From: Kribbella amoyensis
GTDB taxonomy: Bacteria > Actinomycetota > Actinomycetes > Propionibacteriales > Kribbellaceae
Direction of reading: 5' to 3'
DNA: 64,000 nucleotides
Assembly: GCF_007828865.1 (NCBI RefSeq)
Contig: NZ_VIVK01000001.1
Coordinates: 124,001-188,000, forward strand
Part shown: piece after piece, positions 43,087 through 50,286 of the stretch
Position numbering within the stretch: position 1 is the stretch's first letter
Layout of the letters: every line of letters starts with the position of its first letter
Notes under the pieces: model-generated
Told to the model about the DNA's origin: nothing
Seen by the model: the letters and a program-made list of their open reading frames with translations, nothing else
Databases searched by the model: none
Position numbers and translations under genes: made by a program

Positions 43087-44400
43087 TCAACAGCAATGGG
43101 GTTTGCAGCAGGCGTGGTCTGGTTGGGGGCAGGCGTCTTCGGGGAGGAGGGTTCGGCCTACGCCGGGGAGTTGGCGGGCTTGGGCGACCAGGGCTTCGGC
43201 TGCTTGGTGGGCGTTTTCGCCGGTGACTGACATGCGCCCCGCTACCAGGCCGGCCACCAGCGGGGTGGCGAAGGAGGTGCCGCTCCAGCGGGCCATGCCT
43301 CGGAAGTGGCGGACTTCGCCTCGGTACGGGGGTTCGGTGCAGGTGAAGTCGCCGTGCAGGTAGGCGTTGATCAGGTTCTCGCCCGGGGCGTACACGTCGA
43401 CCCAGCCGCCGTAGTTCGTGAAGGACGCGCGGTGGTTGAGGTCTTCGGCGAGGGCTCCTACGGACAGCGTGCTGGGTGAGGCCGCGGGGAAGAAGTACTC
43501 GCGGTCGCCGTCGTTGCCCGCTGCCGCCACCAGGAGCACGCCCTTCAAGTCCGCAAGGCGTTCCAGGAAGACGTCGAAGGCCAGCAACGTACTGCCGTCG
43601 CCCGTCTTGGCGCCTGCGGAGAGGCTGATCAGGTCCGGGTTCTCGGCGAGCCCTTCGTCGAGTTTGACCACCAGGTCGGAGCCGAACGCGGCGCCGGCCC
43701 GGTTGAGGTACGCCTTGACCACGATCTCGGTGCGCGGTGCGACGCAGCGCAGGACGCCCGCGATGAAGACGCCGTGGCCCGCGTACGGGCGGATGTTGGT
43801 GCCCGACGAGTACGGGTGCTCGTCCTCGCCGGTGACGCCCGCGAGCCAGGGCGCGTCCGTCTCGGTCCAGCCGACGTCGACGACGAGGACCTTGACGCCG
43901 CGTCCGTCGCAGTCACCACCGACGGGTGCCGGGGTCGGCGAGACGGCCGGTGGTACCTCCAGTTGTTCGGTCGCCGGGCACGGGCTCACGCTGCACGCGT
44001 AGACCAGGTGGTCCAGCCGGGCGACGCCGCGGCCGAGGACCTGGTCGACGTACGCGAGGTACCGCCGGGTCAGCGTCTCCGCCTGCGGTGCGTCGGGCGG
44101 GAACTCGAACTTCGGATCCGGCTGGAACCGGGTCAGCCCGTCGATGCTCGGGAAGTCCGTCCGCCCACCACGGAACAGTTCCCGCACCCGTGGCAGGTCG
44201 CGGTCGCGGATCAGGAAACTGCCGGTGCGATAGATGCTGTCGGCGCCGACCTCGGCCCAGCCGCGGGGCGAGACCTCCACCTCGTCGCCGAACTCCTCCA
44301 GGATCAAGGCGATCTGGGCCTGTTCCTTGGTCCGGATCTCCTTCGGCGGCTCACTCGCCGCGGCGTTGCCCTCGTCCCCGTTCGGCCTTTGTTCCGACAT
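43087..44400 (-). CDS. Cytosolic S8 subtilase with Cys-rich tail
   Basis: 437 residues with no signal peptide. The catalytic set is complete: Asp175 (VLVVDVG), His209 (YAGHGVFIAG), Asn296 for the oxyanion hole (AAAGNDGD) and Ser376 (WSGTSFATPLVAG). Residues 1-160 form an N-terminal region unlike the usual I9 propeptide. The last 15 residues (CPQPDHACCKPHCC) hold five Cys and two His, a likely metal or redox site. ATG 44400 is preceded by GGAGGGGG. It is divergent from the CHAT gene across 53 bp. Being intracellular and next to CHAT, sigma and nuclease genes, it is more likely part of a regulatory cascade than a digestive enzyme. Confidence 0.88.
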   Translation of the reverse strand: MSEQRPNGDEGNAAASEPPKEIRTKEQAQIALILEEFGDEVEVSPRGWAEVGADSIYRTGSFLIRDRDLPRVRELFRGGRTDFPSIDGLTRFQPDPKFEFPPDAPQAETLTRRYLAYVDQVLGRGVARLDHLVYACSVSPCPATEQLEVPPAVSPTPAPVGGDCDGRGVKVLVVDVGWTETDAPWLAGVTGEDEHPYSSGTNIRPYAGHGVFIAGVLRCVAPRTEIVVKAYLNRAGAAFGSDLVVKLDEGLAENPDLISLSAGAKTGDGSTLLAFDVFLERLADLKGVLLVAAAGNDGDREYFFPAASPSTLSVGALAEDLNHRASFTNYGGWVDVYAPGENLINAYLHGDFTCTEPPYRGEVRHFRGMARWSGTSFATPLVAGLVAGRMSVTGENAHQAAEALVAQARQLPGVGRTLLPEDACPQPDHACCKPHCC

Positions 44401-44441
44401 GGTGCCCCCTCCGAAACGATCACTCCCCGAGTGTCCGCGGT

Positions 44442-44447
44442 TACCCT
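44442..44447 (+). promoter_or_regulatory. -10 element of leaderless CHAT promoter
   Basis: TACCCT, 6 nt before GTG 44454. A CGATCACTC motif sits 17 bp further upstream (44417-44425), where a -35 box would be. Confidence 0.4.
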
Positions 44448-44453
44448 TTCACT

Positions 44454-47033
44454 GTGGGGACCGCAAGTGAAGGGGCACCGGAGGACTTGCTGCCATTGGC
44501 ACTGTCCCGTCCCCATGACGCCATCGCCGCCGCGCGGTCCTTCCTCGGTACGGACCCGCCGCCCGCTCCCGCGTCGATCGCGCACCAGGCCCTCGGTATC
44601 GCGCTGCGCCAGCTCGGCGAGATGCCCCCAGCCCTGAAGGAACTCCGCACCGCCGTACGCCTCGCCCGCGCGTCGCGGCAGACCGACCGCGAGGTGGACG
44701 CGCTGGCCAGTCTGGGCGCGACGCTCGGCCGTGCCGGTCAAGGCAAGGAGGCGCTGGCCACGCTCGATCTCGCGGTCGCGAACAGCCGCGGCGCCCTGGC
44801 CGGCAAGGTACTGCTCCGCCGCGCCGACGTGCTGATCGTCCTCGGCCGGCACGACGAGGCGCTCCAGGATCTTCGCGGCGCCGTGACTCGGCTGCGTCGG
44901 GCCGGCGACGTCGTGTGGGAGGCGAGGTCCCGCAACTACCGCGGCTTCACCTTGCTCGCCCGCGGCGCGACCCGGCAGGCGGAGGCCGACTTCGCGGTCG
45001 CCGAGCAGCTCTACGCCAAGGCCCACCAGGAGTTCGAGTTCGCCGAGGCCCGGCAGAACCGCGGTCTCGTCGCGTCCGCGCGCGGCGATCTGCCCGCGGC
45101 GCTCGCGTACTTCGACGACGCCGGCCGGCGTTTCGACGACCTCGGGGTCAGCTGGCCCGACCTCGCGATCGACCGGTGCGCGACCTTGCTCGCGGCCGGC
45201 CTGACCCAGGAGGCGCTCGCGGTCAGCGACGAGGCCGTGGACCGGATGACGACGGACGGCGGCCAGGAAACGAAACGGCCCGAGCTCCTGTACGCCGCGG
45301 CGACCGCGGCCCTCAGCGTCGGCGACCTCGCCACCGCCCGCGATCGGGCCGACCAGGCCCGCCGCTTGTTCGCGAGCCAGCACCGCGCATGGTGGACCGC
45401 CCGCGCCACGATGGTGCAACTGGAAGCCCGGTACCGATCCGGCGAGCGCGGCAAACGCCTGCTGGACCAGGCCACCCGGCTCGCCCAGAAGCTGGACGAC
45501 CTGAACGCCACCGACGCCCCGGCTGCCCACCTACTCGCCGGCCGCCTCGCCCTGGCCCAGCGGAATTCGGTTGCAGCAGGCAACGAACTCGCGAGCGCGG
45601 CCAAGTTCCGGCGTGGCGCTCCCCCACTCGCCCGCGGCGCCGCGTGGCTGGGTCAAGCGCTGCGGTGCGAGGCGGACGGCGATCTGCGTGGCATGCTCGC
45701 CGCCTGCCGTCGGGGGCTCGACGCGCTCGACCAGCACCGGCAGATGATGGGTGCCACCGAACTGCGTGCCCGCGCCTCGGTCCACGGCACCGAGCTGGCC
45801 CGGCTCGCCCAGGCCGACGCGCTCCGCCGGGGCGATGTCCGCAAGCTCTTGTCCTGGAGCGAACGCTGGCGCGCGACGGCCCTCGCAGTACCGTCGGTCC
45901 GGCCGATCGAGGACCAGGAGGCGGCCGCTGATCTCGCCGCGCTACGCGACGTGGTCCGCCGGTTGGAGGCGTCGAACGACATCCAGCTCGACCGGGAGCG
46001 CCGTCGGCTGGAGGACGCGATCCGGTCCCGCGCGATCCAGGCCCCGGGATCCGCGACCGACTCGACGGCCTTCGACCTCGACGATCTGGTGGCCGCGCTC
46101 GGCAAGACTGTCCTGGTCGAACTCGTCGAGGTGGACGAGGTCCTGCATGCCGTGGTCATCGCAGGCAGCCGCCTCCGACGGCACACCCTCGGCCGGCTGC
46201 AGGACGCCGAGCTCGAGGTGGAGCGCGCCCGCTTCCGCCTTCGCCAGCTCGCCCGGACCCGACCGTCGGCCGGTCCCCCGCTCGACGTCATCGGCGATCG
46301 CCTCGCCAAGGTCCTGCTCGGCGACGTCGAACTCCCCGACGACGCTCCCGTGGTCGTCGTTCCGCCCGGTCGTCTCCAGGCGCTCCCGTGGACCCTGCTG
46401 CCGCAGCTCGCGCGTCGGCCGGTGAGCGTCGCGCCGTCGGCGGCCACCTGGCTCACCGCCCATCGGCTCCCGCCGCCCCGACGTCAACGGGTGACCCTGG
46501 CCTTCGGTCCAGGGCTGCGCTCGGGTGGCGCCGAGGTGCAGAAGCTGGCCGGCAGCTATCCCGCCGCGACCCTGCTCGGTGACGGTCACGCCACCGCCGA
46601 CCAGGTACTGCGTGCGCTCGACGGCGCGTGGCTCGCTCATCTCGCGGCGCACGGGACGTTCCGGTCGGACAGCCCGATGTTCTCCTCGCTCCGGTTCGAC
46701 GACGGACCGCTGACCGTGTACGACTTCGAGCGGCTCCGGCGGGCACCGCATCGGCTCGTGCTGTCCAGCTGCGAGTCCGGGGTCGCGAAGCCGGTCGGGG
46801 CCGACGAGCTGCTCGGCCTGACCAGCAGCCTGGTCCCGTTGGGGGCCGCGGGCATCCTGGCCAGCGTCGTCCCGGTGAACGACGCGGCCGCGGTGCCGTT
46901 CATGCTCGCACTGCACGCGAACCTGCAGGCCGGCCAGTCCCTCGCCGAGGCGTTCGCCGGGGCCCGCGAGCAGGCCGACGACGACCCGTTGACGGTGGCC
47001 ACGGTCTCGTCGTTCGTGGCGCTCGGAGCCTGA
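44454..47033 (+). CDS. TPR-CHAT caspase-like protease
   Basis: 859 residues. Residues 1-450 are helical TPR-type repeats (for example LGIALRQLGEMPPALKELRTAV, LLRRADVLIVLGRHDEALQDL). Residues 590-859 form a CHAT domain, a clan CD peptidase related to caspases and separase: the catalytic His733 is in AHLAAHGTF and Cys773 in LVLSSCESG, followed by GADELLGLTSSLVPLGAAGILAS as in other CHAT proteins. The peptidase therefore looks active, with the TPRs as a sensing or docking part. GTG 44454 has no Shine-Dalgarno and a -10 box at 6 nt, so leaderless. Divergent from the subtilase; 126 bp ahead of the sigma-factor gene. Confidence 0.92.
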   Translation: MGTASEGAPEDLLPLALSRPHDAIAAARSFLGTDPPPAPASIAHQALGIALRQLGEMPPALKELRTAVRLARASRQTDREVDALASLGATLGRAGQGKEALATLDLAVANSRGALAGKVLLRRADVLIVLGRHDEALQDLRGAVTRLRRAGDVVWEARSRNYRGFTLLARGATRQAEADFAVAEQLYAKAHQEFEFAEARQNRGLVASARGDLPAALAYFDDAGRRFDDLGVSWPDLAIDRCATLLAAGLTQEALAVSDEAVDRMTTDGGQETKRPELLYAAATAALSVGDLATARDRADQARRLFASQHRAWWTARATMVQLEARYRSGERGKRLLDQATRLAQKLDDLNATDAPAAHLLAGRLALAQRNSVAAGNELASAAKFRRGAPPLARGAAWLGQALRCEADGDLRGMLAACRRGLDALDQHRQMMGATELRARASVHGTELARLAQADALRRGDVRKLLSWSERWRATALAVPSVRPIEDQEAAADLAALRDVVRRLEASNDIQLDRERRRLEDAIRSRAIQAPGSATDSTAFDLDDLVAALGKTVLVELVEVDEVLHAVVIAGSRLRRHTLGRLQDAELEVERARFRLRQLARTRPSAGPPLDVIGDRLAKVLLGDVELPDDAPVVVVPPGRLQALPWTLLPQLARRPVSVAPSAATWLTAHRLPPPRRQRVTLAFGPGLRSGGAEVQKLAGSYPAATLLGDGHATADQVLRALDGAWLAHLAAHGTFRSDSPMFSSLRFDDGPLTVYDFERLRRAPHRLVLSSCESGVAKPVGADELLGLTSSLVPLGAAGILASVVPVNDAAAVPFMLALHANLQAGQSLAEAFAGAREQADDDPLTVATVSSFVALGA

Positions 47034-47159
47034 TCATCCGGGGCGGTTTCGTGAGATCGTCGATGTATCAGGGTGGGGTACGGCGGACTCCGTGAGGTAC
47101 ATGGTCCTCGACGGACGGTGACCCGGTGACGGAGCCGCCTGGTGGGGAGGGAGCACGGG

Positions 47160-47759
47160 ATGCGGAACGACCCGGTTGTCGTTCGGCTGGTCGCCCAGGC
47201 GCGCGACGGGGACAAGGGTGCCTGGGACCAGTTGGTGGAGCGGTACGCGCCGCTGGTGTGGGCCATCTGCCGCCGGTACCGGCTGTCCGCCGCGGACGCC
47301 GAGGACGTCGGGCAGAGCGTGTGGCTGCGGTTGGTCGAGCACCTGCCCGACCTCCGCGAACCGGCCGCGTTGCCGGGCTGGGTCGCCACGACCAGCCGGC
47401 GTGAGTGTCTGCGGGTACTCCGGATGAGCAAGCGGAACGAACCGGTCGACCAGACGGACGGCCAGGACGTTCCGGATCCCGGGGCACCGGTCGACGAGGA
47501 CCTGTTGCTGGCCGAGCGCAGGCACGCCGTGCGGTCCGCGTTCGCCCAGCTGTCCTTGCGCTGCCGGCAACTGCTGTTGCTGCTGCTCGAGGACCCGCCC
47601 AGGCCGTACCAGGAGATCGGCGCCGCGTTGCGGATGCCGGTCGGGAGCATCGGGCCGAGCCGCGCCCGGTGCTTGGACAAACTGCGTCACAGCGCGACCC
47701 TCACCGCGGTGATCGGGTTCGAGCTGGAGCAGGCAGGAAGTGAGCGACATGCCCGATGA
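47160..47759 (+). CDS. ECF-type sigma factor of the CHAT module
   Basis: 199 residues from ATG 47160 behind GGGGAGGGAGC. Region 2: WDQLVERYAPLVWAICRRYRLSAADAEDVGQSVW and LPGWVATTSRRECLRVLR. Region 4: LSLRCRQLLLLLLEDPPRPYQEIGAALRMPVGSIGPSRARCLDKLR. The GSIGPSRARCL helix is that of a group of actinobacterial ECF-like factors often found with large signalling proteins. It overlaps by 11 bp the 160-residue protein downstream, an arrangement typical of a sigma factor and its regulator. It may transcribe the protease and nuclease genes around it. Confidence 0.88.
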   Translation: MRNDPVVVRLVAQARDGDKGAWDQLVERYAPLVWAICRRYRLSAADAEDVGQSVWLRLVEHLPDLREPAALPGWVATTSRRECLRVLRMSKRNEPVDQTDGQDVPDPGAPVDEDLLLAERRHAVRSAFAQLSLRCRQLLLLLLEDPPRPYQEIGAALRMPVGSIGPSRARCLDKLRHSATLTAVIGFELEQAGSERHAR

Positions 47760-48231
47760 CTGGTGGACCGACGACGACCAGCTGGTCGCCGTGCTCGCGG
47801 ACGCCCTGGACGAGGCCCGGGCGGTGCCGCCCGAGTTCGTCGAGGCGGGCAAGGCGGCATACGTCTGGCGCACGATCGACGCCGAACTCGCCGCGCTGAC
47901 GTACGACTCGGTGGCCGACGCCGAGCTGGCCGGGACTTTGCGGGCCGACTCGGCGACGCTACGGGCGCTCACCTTCGCGTCCGCGGACCTGACGATCGAG
48001 CTCGAGGTGACCGCGGACGCACTGCTCGGCCAGGTCGTCCCGGTCGAGGCGGGCCGGGTCACGGCGTACGCGGGTCCGGCCGCGGACACGCTGGACCGGG
48101 TCGAGGTGGGGACCGCCGTGATCGACGAGCTCGGGTTCTTCGTCCTGCGTCCGGTACCGGCCGGGTCCTTCCGGTTGTTGTGCCGGACCGCTTCGGGGAT
48201 CACCGCCCTGACCGGCTGGATCCACCCATGA
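47749..48231 (+). CDS. Sigma-partner protein of unknown function
   Basis: 160 residues from ATG 47749 (AGGAAG 10 nt upstream), inside the end of the sigma-factor gene. The first 50 residues are an acidic helical part (DDWWTDDDQLVAVLADALDEARAV, then FVEAGKAAYVWRTIDAELAALTYDS), the second half is beta-rich (LTIELEVTADALLGQVVPVE, VDE-like VIDELGFFVLRPVPAGSFRLLC) and recalls carboxypeptidase-regulatory-like beta sandwiches. I recall similar pairs behind this type of sigma factor in Streptomyces. Binding to the sigma factor is inferred from the overlap alone. Confidence 0.75.
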   Translation: MPDDWWTDDDQLVAVLADALDEARAVPPEFVEAGKAAYVWRTIDAELAALTYDSVADAELAGTLRADSATLRALTFASADLTIELEVTADALLGQVVPVEAGRVTAYAGPAADTLDRVEVGTAVIDELGFFVLRPVPAGSFRLLCRTASGITALTGWIHP

Positions 48232-48252
48232 GGCAGAACGTGCTGCGGCTCC

Positions 48253-48308
48253 GGACAGGTGAAGGGGCGAGGCCCTCCCTCCCTGACCTCGCCCCACGGC
48301 ACCTGTCC
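48253..48308 (+). terminator. Two-tier stem-loop before the nuclease gene
   Basis: Outer arms GGACAGGTG (48253-48261) and CACCTGTCC (48300-48308), inner arms GGGGCGAGG (48264-48272) and CCTCGCCCC (48287-48295); 18 bp in total with a small interior loop. It lies 22 bp past the sigma-partner stop: terminator or attenuator separating the regulator genes from the effector. Confidence 0.6.
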
Positions 48309-48462
48309 CCCCGACAGCCTGTGCCTACTGGTCGGAGCACCCGGGCACCGCGCTGATACATCCGGACGGAACTCTTTTTTCGATCACTCTTCCGGCCTGC
48401 GCGAACTGGTCCGACCAGGTCCGGCCGGCGTTTCACCCGCAGCTGACCCAGGGGGGCCCGCA

Positions 48463-50286
48463 ATGGAATCGACCGACGAGCTGTTCACCGCACTCCGCGA
48501 GTACGTCCGCACCGAGGGCACGAAGTACCTGAAGGATCCGAACGTCTCCTCGATCGGGATCGGGTACAAGGTGCGCGACGGCAGACCGACCAAGGAGATC
48601 TCGATCCAGTTCACCGTGGCGACCAAGGCCGAGCCGGAGGCGCTCGGTGACCTGGACACCAAGGAGCTGCCGAAGTCGATCACGATCAACGGCGTCGAGG
48701 TCCCGACCGACGTGCTGGAACGGACGTACCACCCGGACTTCCGGGTCGTCCCCGAGGCCGAGGTGAGCGACCGCAAGATCCGCCTCGACCCGATCCGGCC
48801 GGGCATCAGCGTCGGCCACCCGGCGATCACGGCCGGCACGATCGGCGCCGTCGTGTATGACACCGAGACGGGCCGCCCTTGTGTGCTGAGCAACTGGCAC
48901 GTCCTGCACGGCGAACACGGACAGCTCGGTGACGTCGTCGTCCAGCCCGGCACGTACGACGACAACCGGACCGACCGGAACCAGCTCGGCCCACTCCTCC
49001 GCTCGTACGTCGGGGTCGCGGGCGACGGCGCGATCGCGGCGATCGACGGGCGCGGCGTGGACCCGTCGATCCTCGAGCTCGACGTGGCGCCGGCCGAGAT
49101 CGGTGAGCCCGAGCTGGGCGACAAGGTGGTGAAGAGCGGCCGCACGACCGGGGTCACCCACGGCATCGTCCGGCGGATCGACACGCTCGCGAAGATCGAC
49201 TACGGCGCGCCGATCGGTACGGTCGAGGTCGGTGGGTTCGAGATCGGTGTCGACCCCGGCAAGCGGCCGGCCGACGGCGAGGTCAGCAAGGGCGGGGACT
49301 CCGGGGCCGCGTGGATCTTCAAGTCCGGCAACGGGCGCGCGACCAAGGTCCTGGCCGGCATCCACTTCGCCGGTGAGGGCACGGGCGATCCGGACGAGCA
49401 CGCGCTGGCCTGTCTGCCGCGATCGCTGTTCCAGAAGCTCGGCGTGACGCTGACGAAGCCGGAGGCGGCGGCCGTGGTCACGGGGTACGACCCGGGCTTC
49501 CTGCGGACGACGTTGCCCGTGCCCACGCTCGACCCGGCGGCCGCGGCCGACGCCGTCCAGCTGAACGGCTCGGACCGGATCGACTACATGCACTTCTCGC
49601 TGACGATGAGCCGCAGTCGCCGGTTCGCCCACTGGGTGGCGTGGAACATCGACGGCGGGTCCCTGAAGAAGCTCAGCCGGACCAACATCCCCTTCGTCAA
49701 GGACCCGCGACTGGCCGCGGACGTCCAGGTCGGCGACGAGCTGTACCGCGACAACCGGCTCGACCGCGGCCATCTGGCCCGCCGCGCCGACCTGCTCTGG
49801 GGATCCCTGGAGGACGCGACCAAGGCGAACCACGACTCGTTCTTCTTCACCAACATCACGCCCCAGATGGACGACTTCAACCAGAGCACCAAGGACGGTC
49901 TGTGGGGCCGCCTGGAGGACGCGGTGTTCGCCGACGTCGACATGGACGACCTCAAGGTGAACGTCTACGGCGGCCCGGTCTTCACCGACGACGACCGCGA
50001 GTTCCGCGGCGTCAAGATCCCCCGCGAGTTCTGGAAGATCATCACCTTCACCGAAGCCGGCACCCTGAAGGCGAGCGCCTTCCTCCTCACCCAGAACCTC
50101 GACCAGCTCGAAGCCCTCGACCTGGACGAGTTCCGCGTCTTCCAGGTCAGCCTGCCCGACCTGGAATCCCGCACCAAGGTCCGCTTCGCCCCAGAACTCC
50201 ACCAAGCCGACACAGCCCCACCCGTCCCAGAACTGGCCGGCCCCCAACCCCCACTCACCGACCTCGCCGACATCGTCTGGGGTTAG
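48463..50286 (+). CDS. Trypsin-like protease fused to NucA-type endonuclease
   Basis: 607 residues, no signal peptide. Residues 1-100 form a small domain (SSIGIGYKVRDGRPTKEISIQFTV) typical in front of Nal1-like trypsins. Residues 120-335 form the trypsin fold: His146 (LSNWHVL), Asp188 or Asp195 (GDGAIAAIDG) and Ser280 (KGGDSGAAW). Residues 365-580 form a DNA/RNA non-specific endonuclease of the beta-beta-alpha-Me fold: D-R-G-H at 434-437 with catalytic His437, and Asn464 (FFTNITPQ) for the metal. Both active sites look intact. The protein could cut nucleic acid in the cytosol and must be restrained. ATG 48463 follows GGGGGG. It closes the subtilase-CHAT-sigma group. Confidence 0.9.
   Translation: MESTDELFTALREYVRTEGTKYLKDPNVSSIGIGYKVRDGRPTKEISIQFTVATKAEPEALGDLDTKELPKSITINGVEVPTDVLERTYHPDFRVVPEAEVSDRKIRLDPIRPGISVGHPAITAGTIGAVVYDTETGRPCVLSNWHVLHGEHGQLGDVVVQPGTYDDNRTDRNQLGPLLRSYVGVAGDGAIAAIDGRGVDPSILELDVAPAEIGEPELGDKVVKSGRTTGVTHGIVRRIDTLAKIDYGAPIGTVEVGGFEIGVDPGKRPADGEVSKGGDSGAAWIFKSGNGRATKVLAGIHFAGEGTGDPDEHALACLPRSLFQKLGVTLTKPEAAAVVTGYDPGFLRTTLPVPTLDPAAAADAVQLNGSDRIDYMHFSLTMSRSRRFAHWVAWNIDGGSLKKLSRTNIPFVKDPRLAADVQVGDELYRDNRLDRGHLARRADLLWGSLEDATKANHDSFFFTNITPQMDDFNQSTKDGLWGRLEDAVFADVDMDDLKVNVYGGPVFTDDDREFRGVKIPREFWKIITFTEAGTLKASAFLLTQNLDQLEALDLDEFRVFQVSLPDLESRTKVRFAPELHQADTAPPVPELAGPQPPLTDLADIVWG

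Follow-up and report, generated by a model that had tools for sequence, protein, structure and literature searches.

A lone protease-nuclease gene of Kribbella amoyensis: a candidate intracellular effector with a NAL1-like protease and a NucA/EndoG-like nuclease

What use does a bacterium have for a non-specific nuclease that it appears to keep inside the cell, joined to a protease? The question is raised by one gene in a stretch of 64,000 nucleotides (the window) from the genome of Kribbella amoyensis (contig NZ_VIVK01000001.1, positions 124,001 to 188,000). A single open frame on the forward strand, 48463-50286, encodes a fusion protein of 607 amino acids plus stop, here called P0001. A preliminary description saw in it a trypsin-like protease and a DNA/RNA endonuclease without export signal, reasoned that such a nuclease should be lethal unless held inactive, and suggested that the protease half frees it by self-cleavage or that the fusion is a substrate of a neighbouring CHAT protein. 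How much of this holds?

That protease and nuclease share one polypeptide is confirmed by the open frame, by Pfam for the nuclease and by the modelled folds of both. Endonuclease_NS (PF01223) matches residues 365-579 (E 1.3e-42; 146.4 bits against a cut-off of 23), and the same profile is found in all 53 full-length members of the family described below. The protease half matches nothing in Pfam, NCBIfam, PADLOC or, by sequence, the PDB, and indeed PADLOC and NCBIfam match nothing anywhere in P0001. The AlphaFold model (mean pLDDT 80.9, pTM 0.59) has two parts. Residues 1-336 resemble rice NAL1, which fills the top three rows (Z 27.1-27.2, 3.6-4.0 A over 303-318 residues, 21-22% identity) and is also ranked first for the model by Foldseek. 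Residues 111-331 resemble Streptomyces griseus protease B (Z 20.5), and residues 337-588 resemble EndoG/CPS-6 (Z 16.8) and the Serratia nuclease (Z 16.6). Judging from these fold matches, a bacterial NAL1-like protease, N-terminal domain included, describes more closely what had been called a trypsin fold. The Pfam profiles NAL1_N and Nal1_C do not match P0001 and appear at E up to 0.01 in one and three of the 53 members, respectively; in L154, which is related to the protease half, NAL1_N does score above its cut-off.

The gene as a whole (48463-50286, forward strand like all its parts) may therefore be read as a fusion of a NAL1-like protease with a NucA/EndoG-like nuclease. Residues 1-108 (48463-48786) would be the NAL1-type N-terminal domain, whose border is put inside the NAL1 match of 1-336. 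The chymotrypsin-fold serine protease occupies residues 109-330 (48787-49452), in accordance with matches to protease B and alpha-lytic protease over about 109-332. A linker marked by its column entropy and length variation follows (residues 331-340; 49453-49482), and then the nuclease, with a GYDPxFL start and a C-terminal tail (residues 341-607; 49483-50283), delimited by the Endonuclease_NS match, by its fold and by solo relatives that begin at the same motif. The model is least confident (pLDDT below 50) at residues 432-434, 436-443 and 466-473, the region of the nuclease active site. When the nuclease is modelled alone the same regions do somewhat better, still with low blocks of 52-69, and since the low values persist there, a shallow alignment is a likelier cause than occlusion by the protease. 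As in the preliminary description, no export signal is seen: by the Kyte-Doolittle scale, the best 19-residue segment that begins within the first 50 positions scores 0.36 in P0001 and at most 1.04 in the 53 members, so the N-terminus is not hydrophobic.

Both active sites appear intact. The protease has His146 (48898-48900) and the nucleophile Ser280 within GGDSG (49300-49302), with Asp188 (49024-49026) the likely third member of the triad from its place after His146. The nuclease has DRGH at 434-437 (49762-49773), followed by Asn464 (49852-49854), Asn473 (49879-49881) and Glu485 (49915-49917). Every one of these residues (H146, D188, S280, D434, R435, G436, H437, N464, N473 and E485) is invariant in the 53 aligned full-length members, so the preservation of His146, Ser280 and DRGH noticed earlier in one protein extends to the family, and the loss in homologues that would have counted against the idea is not what is found. 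In a wider alignment of 81 rows, which takes in the window and 80 related loci, some of them with broken frames, H146 stands in 78 (three gaps), D188 in 78 (two other residues, one gap), S280 in 80 (one gap), DRGH in 80, and N464, N473 and E485 in 79 each. Metal-dependent cleavage of DNA and RNA would be expected of an Endonuclease_NS enzyme. Asn464, put forward earlier as part of the nuclease site, is certainly conserved, but the catalytic or metal-binding asparagine is most likely Asn473 and Asn464 is probably non-catalytic, to judge from an alignment to NucA and from the spacing of 34 between H471 and N505 of LypC, a known fusion discussed below; that spacing fits the Asn of the LNQ motif in the LypC-like protein L208. 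Alignment to NucA likewise makes Glu485 the likely active-site glutamate. Both placements use the residue numbering of the Serratia nuclease and NucA. From Val274, six positions before Ser280, I presume that the protease is probably not trypsin-like in its specificity.

Is the fusion anything more than an accident of one genome? A pattern scan of a genome collection, which gives a lower bound, found 174 stretches that fit, 147 of which encode a relative, and the best 80 of the 147 were kept. In 78 of the 80 the match starts no later than residue 12 and reaches at least residue 564, with 49-78% identity in the best segment, and four phyla are represented among these best 80 (Actinobacteria, Acidobacteria, Bacteroidota and Proteobacteria, mainly the first). 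Matches of nearly full length over such a range exclude a chance fusion: this is a real, conserved and patchy family. Its patchiness is seen close at hand, for a full-length fusion is present in 4 of 38 genomes of the genus. The sequence on either side of the window's copy has no counterpart beside any of the other three, and these have no more than 69 bp in common with one another. A sample of 396 genomes of the phylum has 29 matches, of which only the window's own is full length. A nuclease query of 394 genomes of the class has 42, among them at least five NAL1-type fusions (the window's own and L176-L179), the classification leaving aside eight weaker matches of 38-43% identity. Of 72,556 plasmid records, five have a copy that spans 80% or more of the fusion, and the four plasmid loci examined differ in their surrounding genes, except for two nearly identical Rhizobium loci. 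There was no relative among 72 pattern matches on viral contigs and no full-length copy in phages, six phage records having part of the nuclease only. The gene is thus accessory, occurring patchily at unrelated sites. On a Paracoccus marcusii plasmid (L209), the match of a 440-aa protein to the fusion does not begin until residue 202, so that the protease half has apparently been cut short and the nuclease kept.

If the CHAT protease next door cut the fusion or worked with it, one would look for the two together elsewhere. In the window they adjoin on the same strand, the fusion lying 231 bp behind the gene for a 163-aa protein that belongs to the CHAT block. But homologues of the CHAT protein, the sigma factor and the 163-aa protein, sought with profiles from the genus copies over up to 10 kb (sometimes less) on each side, occur in none of the 80 related loci. 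The 163-aa protein is present in 31 of the 38 genus genomes, and 30 loci fetched for it (the window's own included) have CHAT in 28 and sigma in 30; only in the window's own does the fusion follow. In another genome of the genus (G007), block and fusion share a contig 80 kb apart, and the window is collinear with the CHAT block of that genome from 43088 to 48326 and no further, which puts the end of the block inside the gap before the fusion gene (48232-48462). What follows the 163-aa gene varies among the genus loci examined: L122, L124 and L133 share one follower, L119 and L120 another, and the remainder differ. The gap holds a GC-rich hairpin, modestly better than shuffled sequence (9 of 200 shuffles fold as well), and no consensus promoter or terminator was found in it, which tells little for GC-rich DNA. 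An operon with the 163-aa gene was considered and set aside, in view of the 231-bp gap. The block is kept in the genus without the fusion, and the neighbourhood evidence therefore speaks against the partnership once proposed. That the fusion is a substrate or partner of the adjacent CHAT protein is very improbable; cleavage by CHAT is not thereby disproved. The genus-wide block itself (43087-48231: a divergent S8 subtilase, a CHAT/TPR protein, a sigma factor and the family-less 163-aa protein), in which S8 stands beside CHAT in the genus loci examined, is perhaps a CHAT-protease/sigma module of its own.

No other neighbour takes the place of CHAT. Seven window proteins were scanned (S8, CHAT/TPR, sigma, RibD_C, two without family and the fusion). 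No neighbour gene is conserved across the 80 loci, the largest neighbour families reaching 10 and 9 of the 80 plus the window's own; a rough motif scan of the 80 found no second trypsin, and the loci examined, four plasmid loci included, have no recurrent defence genes. An S8 gene is found in 10 of the 80. In six from Saccharothrix (L012, L016, L021, L027, L029, L072) it directly adjoins the fusion and in the other four it lies further away; the Saccharothrix protein (L027) starts like an exported protein and the window's S8 does not.

Where might a cut free the nuclease? The preliminary description looked for that cut between residues 335 and 370, and this does not fit the family, since residues 341-360 are the conserved start of the nuclease (GYDPxFL...P). 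The variable linker is 331-340, the least conserved stretch measured (mean entropy 2.54 bits, where the protease averages 1.08 and the nuclease 1.03); segment 326-340 ranges from 13 to 29 residues among members, and the family alignment has no conserved cleavage site within 331-340. A cut there would give a protein like natural ones. Members of the nuclease clade begin at GYDPxFL; among them are leaderless solo frames, 268-312 residues long, whose start lies just ahead of that sequence and whose motifs are intact. Aligned with the fused nuclease, the nearest of them (L181-L183) show nothing more than gaps of a few residues, so the fused form carries no gating insertion that these relatives lack. 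Self-release of the nuclease may occur.

The solo forms also bear on the premise of lethality. EndoG/CPS-6, the Serratia nuclease and Anabaena NucA, whose fold and DRGH the window nuclease shares, are mitochondrial or secreted and are not fused to proteases. NucA carries a signal peptide, and intracellular NucA without it is reported to kill cyanobacterial cells (PMC4890671), which favours the premise. The leaderless solo nucleases weaken it. The solo nuclease of Nocardia sp. NRRL S-836 (L080), an intact protein of about 274 aa that has a start codon of its own, is 69.9% identical to the window's and has no protease match beside it. Of eight genomes that carry solo forms, seven gave no NAL1-type protease to a P0001 query; the genome of L080 gave a weak match of 27% identity. 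Solo forms may be restrained otherwise. A query for a NuiA-type inhibitor matched none of 8 genomes, but it matched none of 14 control genomes either, which leaves the negative without weight.

Has this nuclease always had the same protease? The tree puts L080 inside the fused clade (SH-aLRT 98, in a set of 5), and an AU test keeps the arrangement in which the fused rows form one clade without L080 (p 0.739; the constrained tree even scored higher). A secondary loss of the protease in L080 is thus one of two readings, neither favoured over the other. The nuclease clade includes other fusions, with a V8-like protease of the Trypsin_2 type (L135) and with a LypC-like one (L115, L116, L208). To hold all fused rows, NAL1-, V8- and LypC-like, as one clade costs 62 log units (p-AU 0.012), and to hold the NAL1 and V8 types together costs 90 (p-AU 0.0005). 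These are quick trees, built without L136, L143, L180, L192, L198, L200 and L207 (excluded for an unclear start, an in-frame stop or duplication) and without 7 of 27 picked A1 rows whose start motif the pattern missed; L184 was left unclassified. From the split of the fused types it follows that the nuclease either exchanged one protease for another or acquired a protease on more than one occasion, and this history favours a working link between the two halves.

Some related loci are more elaborate. At L129 (7562-15943), a Trypsin_2 protein, an AAA_16/STAND protein and a Trypsin_2-Endonuclease_NS fusion lie beside an Amidohydro_2 gene (by Pfam) in an operon resembling LypABC, and L130, a second genus relative, has by similarity the same operon. 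L131 (3034-12345) has two related protease-like genes in tandem, the second weakly matching the window protein, with DUF6603, S8 and Amidohydro_2 nearby. Among 11 solo loci searched with six trypsin queries, trypsin genes were found only at L166, where a NACHT/AAA_16 protein is followed by two of them, one with a fused EAD5 part; weak matches of one trypsin query on the strand opposite the nuclease in L166, L168, L169, L170 and L172 were taken to be antisense artefacts. L166 (817-9142), with a solo NucA-type nuclease, the NACHT/AAA_16 protein, EAD5-trypsin and the second trypsin all on one strand, looks like a conflict locus whose parts are separate genes and whose nuclease comes from the same clade. 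On the Sinorhizobium meliloti plasmid pCpl (L208), the fourth gene after the LypC-like nuclease, on the same strand, is annotated CHAT domain-containing.

Fusions of NucA and trypsin are, as a kind, already known: predicted in 2020 (PMC7159879) and tested, as LypC, in 2026 (PMC13236601). In the former, the System 3 of Kaur has as its core a NucA nuclease and a trypsin-like peptidase, fused or in one operon, with deployment by a proteolytic cascade predicted; it is mostly alphaproteobacterial (45 organisms), subsets having EAD1, STAND, TM or S8 parts. NucA-trypsin systems are named again in PMC8195603. The window protein likewise pairs a NucA-type nuclease with a trypsin-like peptidase, but it is the product of a lone gene, its protease is of the NAL1 type and its family is mainly actinobacterial. 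LypC, of Caulobacter LypABC, has the same layout (N-terminal trypsin-like peptidase, linker, C-terminal endonuclease) and a His/Asn nuclease site, the pair that was mutated being H471/N505; its protease is reported to be needed for lysis and its nuclease activity not (PMC13236601). LypC works with LypA and LypB, whereas no such partner was recognised beside the window gene among the seven proteins scanned, and the LypC-like L115, L116 and L208 are on another nuclease branch, the protease of L115 matching Trypsin_2.

More distant comparisons concern the link itself. According to PMC12799240, the trypsin-like domain of Hachiman switches on a pro-nuclease in vitro; for AVAST the same activation is supported by a blot and by mutants of the cleavage site. 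The pairing of a trypsin-like protease with a nuclease is common to those systems and the window fusion, but theirs is an MBL-fold nuclease, always a separate gene and with two gating insertions, while the window's is a NucA fold, fused and with no extra insertion. NAL1 of rice and maize is described as an intracellular serine protease, a plant regulator that degrades TOPLESS-like corepressors (PMC12915138); residues 1-336 share its fold, N-terminal domain included, and the aligned NAL1 chains have no nuclease part. The lone NAL1-type branch is the new part: no paper on a NAL1-nuclease fusion was found among leading search matches, a scope that excluded preprints and most subscription papers.

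I propose, with a probability of roughly 0.4, that the gene encodes a self-contained accessory intracellular effector, a NAL1-like protease with a C-terminal NucA/EndoG-like nuclease, in which a regulated protease is able to free the nuclease. The NucA-trypsin conflict systems predicted earlier would here be reduced to a single gene. The protease half would be the regulated part, switched on by a stress or invader signal; the protein would then be cut at or near linker 331-340, by the same or another copy, and the freed nuclease, starting at GYDPxFL and resembling the natural solo forms, would degrade the cell's nucleic acids, presumably killing it. This proposal draws on the conserved active sites, the two modelled folds, the lack of a leader, the patchy sites and the lack of a partner gene common across the set, and further on a nuclease clade paired with more than one kind of trypsin-like protease and also with STAND-type and trypsin proteins (L129, L166). 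It leans by analogy on System 3, on Hachiman and AVAST, on the role of the LypC protease in lysis and on killing by intracellular NucA. A stronger version, which I hold only tentatively and think doubtful, makes the gene a one-gene programmed-death enzyme whose NAL1-like protease senses the signal and cuts its own linker to free an EndoG-like nuclease, a stand-alone cassette found across phyla.

Several observations count against the effector and serve its rivals. The linker has no conserved site (HamM, by comparison, has conserved isoleucines; PMC12799240), the nuclease has no gating insertion, and solo nucleases exist without the protease. All this would be expected if protease and nuclease were two payloads acting side by side on protein and nucleic acid without gating, merely kept together by the fusion and controlled by expression or by some inhibitor. 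That is unlikely, if not much more so than the stronger version above, given that repeated pairing with trypsin-like proteases suggests a functional link, as do the tested pairs of Hachiman and AVAST (PMC12799240). Also to be counted are the LypC nuclease point mutants, which lyse normally, and the available account of LypC, which reports no self-cleavage (PMC13236601). Perhaps, then, as in LypC, the protease acts and the nuclease mainly stabilises the protein or has a side role; losing the nuclease domain destabilises LypC, and one Caulobacter homologue is without it (same paper). It would be odd in that case for the nuclease residues to be invariant in all 53 members and for the nuclease to persist alone in solo forms, and I consider this explanation improbable.

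The lack of recurrent defence genes, the low model confidence at the nuclease site and Val274, which speaks against trypsin-like specificity, weigh on the effector as well. A single gene without conserved partner, whose solo relatives have no leader, might instead encode a degradative or scavenging enzyme that acts outside after cell lysis or through leaderless export. Against this, trypsin and STAND neighbours occur at related loci, and NAL1-type proteases work inside plant cells (PMC12915138); it seems to me somewhat less probable even than a LypC-like role.

If the protease of the effector proposed here does control its nuclease, protease gating of a nuclease would here take a very simple form, a single gene that needs no sensor besides itself, and bacterial NAL1-like proteases would be tied to cell death. 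Were the stronger version true, a task that takes two genes in Hachiman and AVAST would fall to one polypeptide. Natural controls for what the protease contributes exist in the fusions with other proteases and in the solo forms (L080, L181-L183), and a family labelled only 'DNA/RNA non-specific endonuclease' on the plasmid records examined gains an identity that can be tested.
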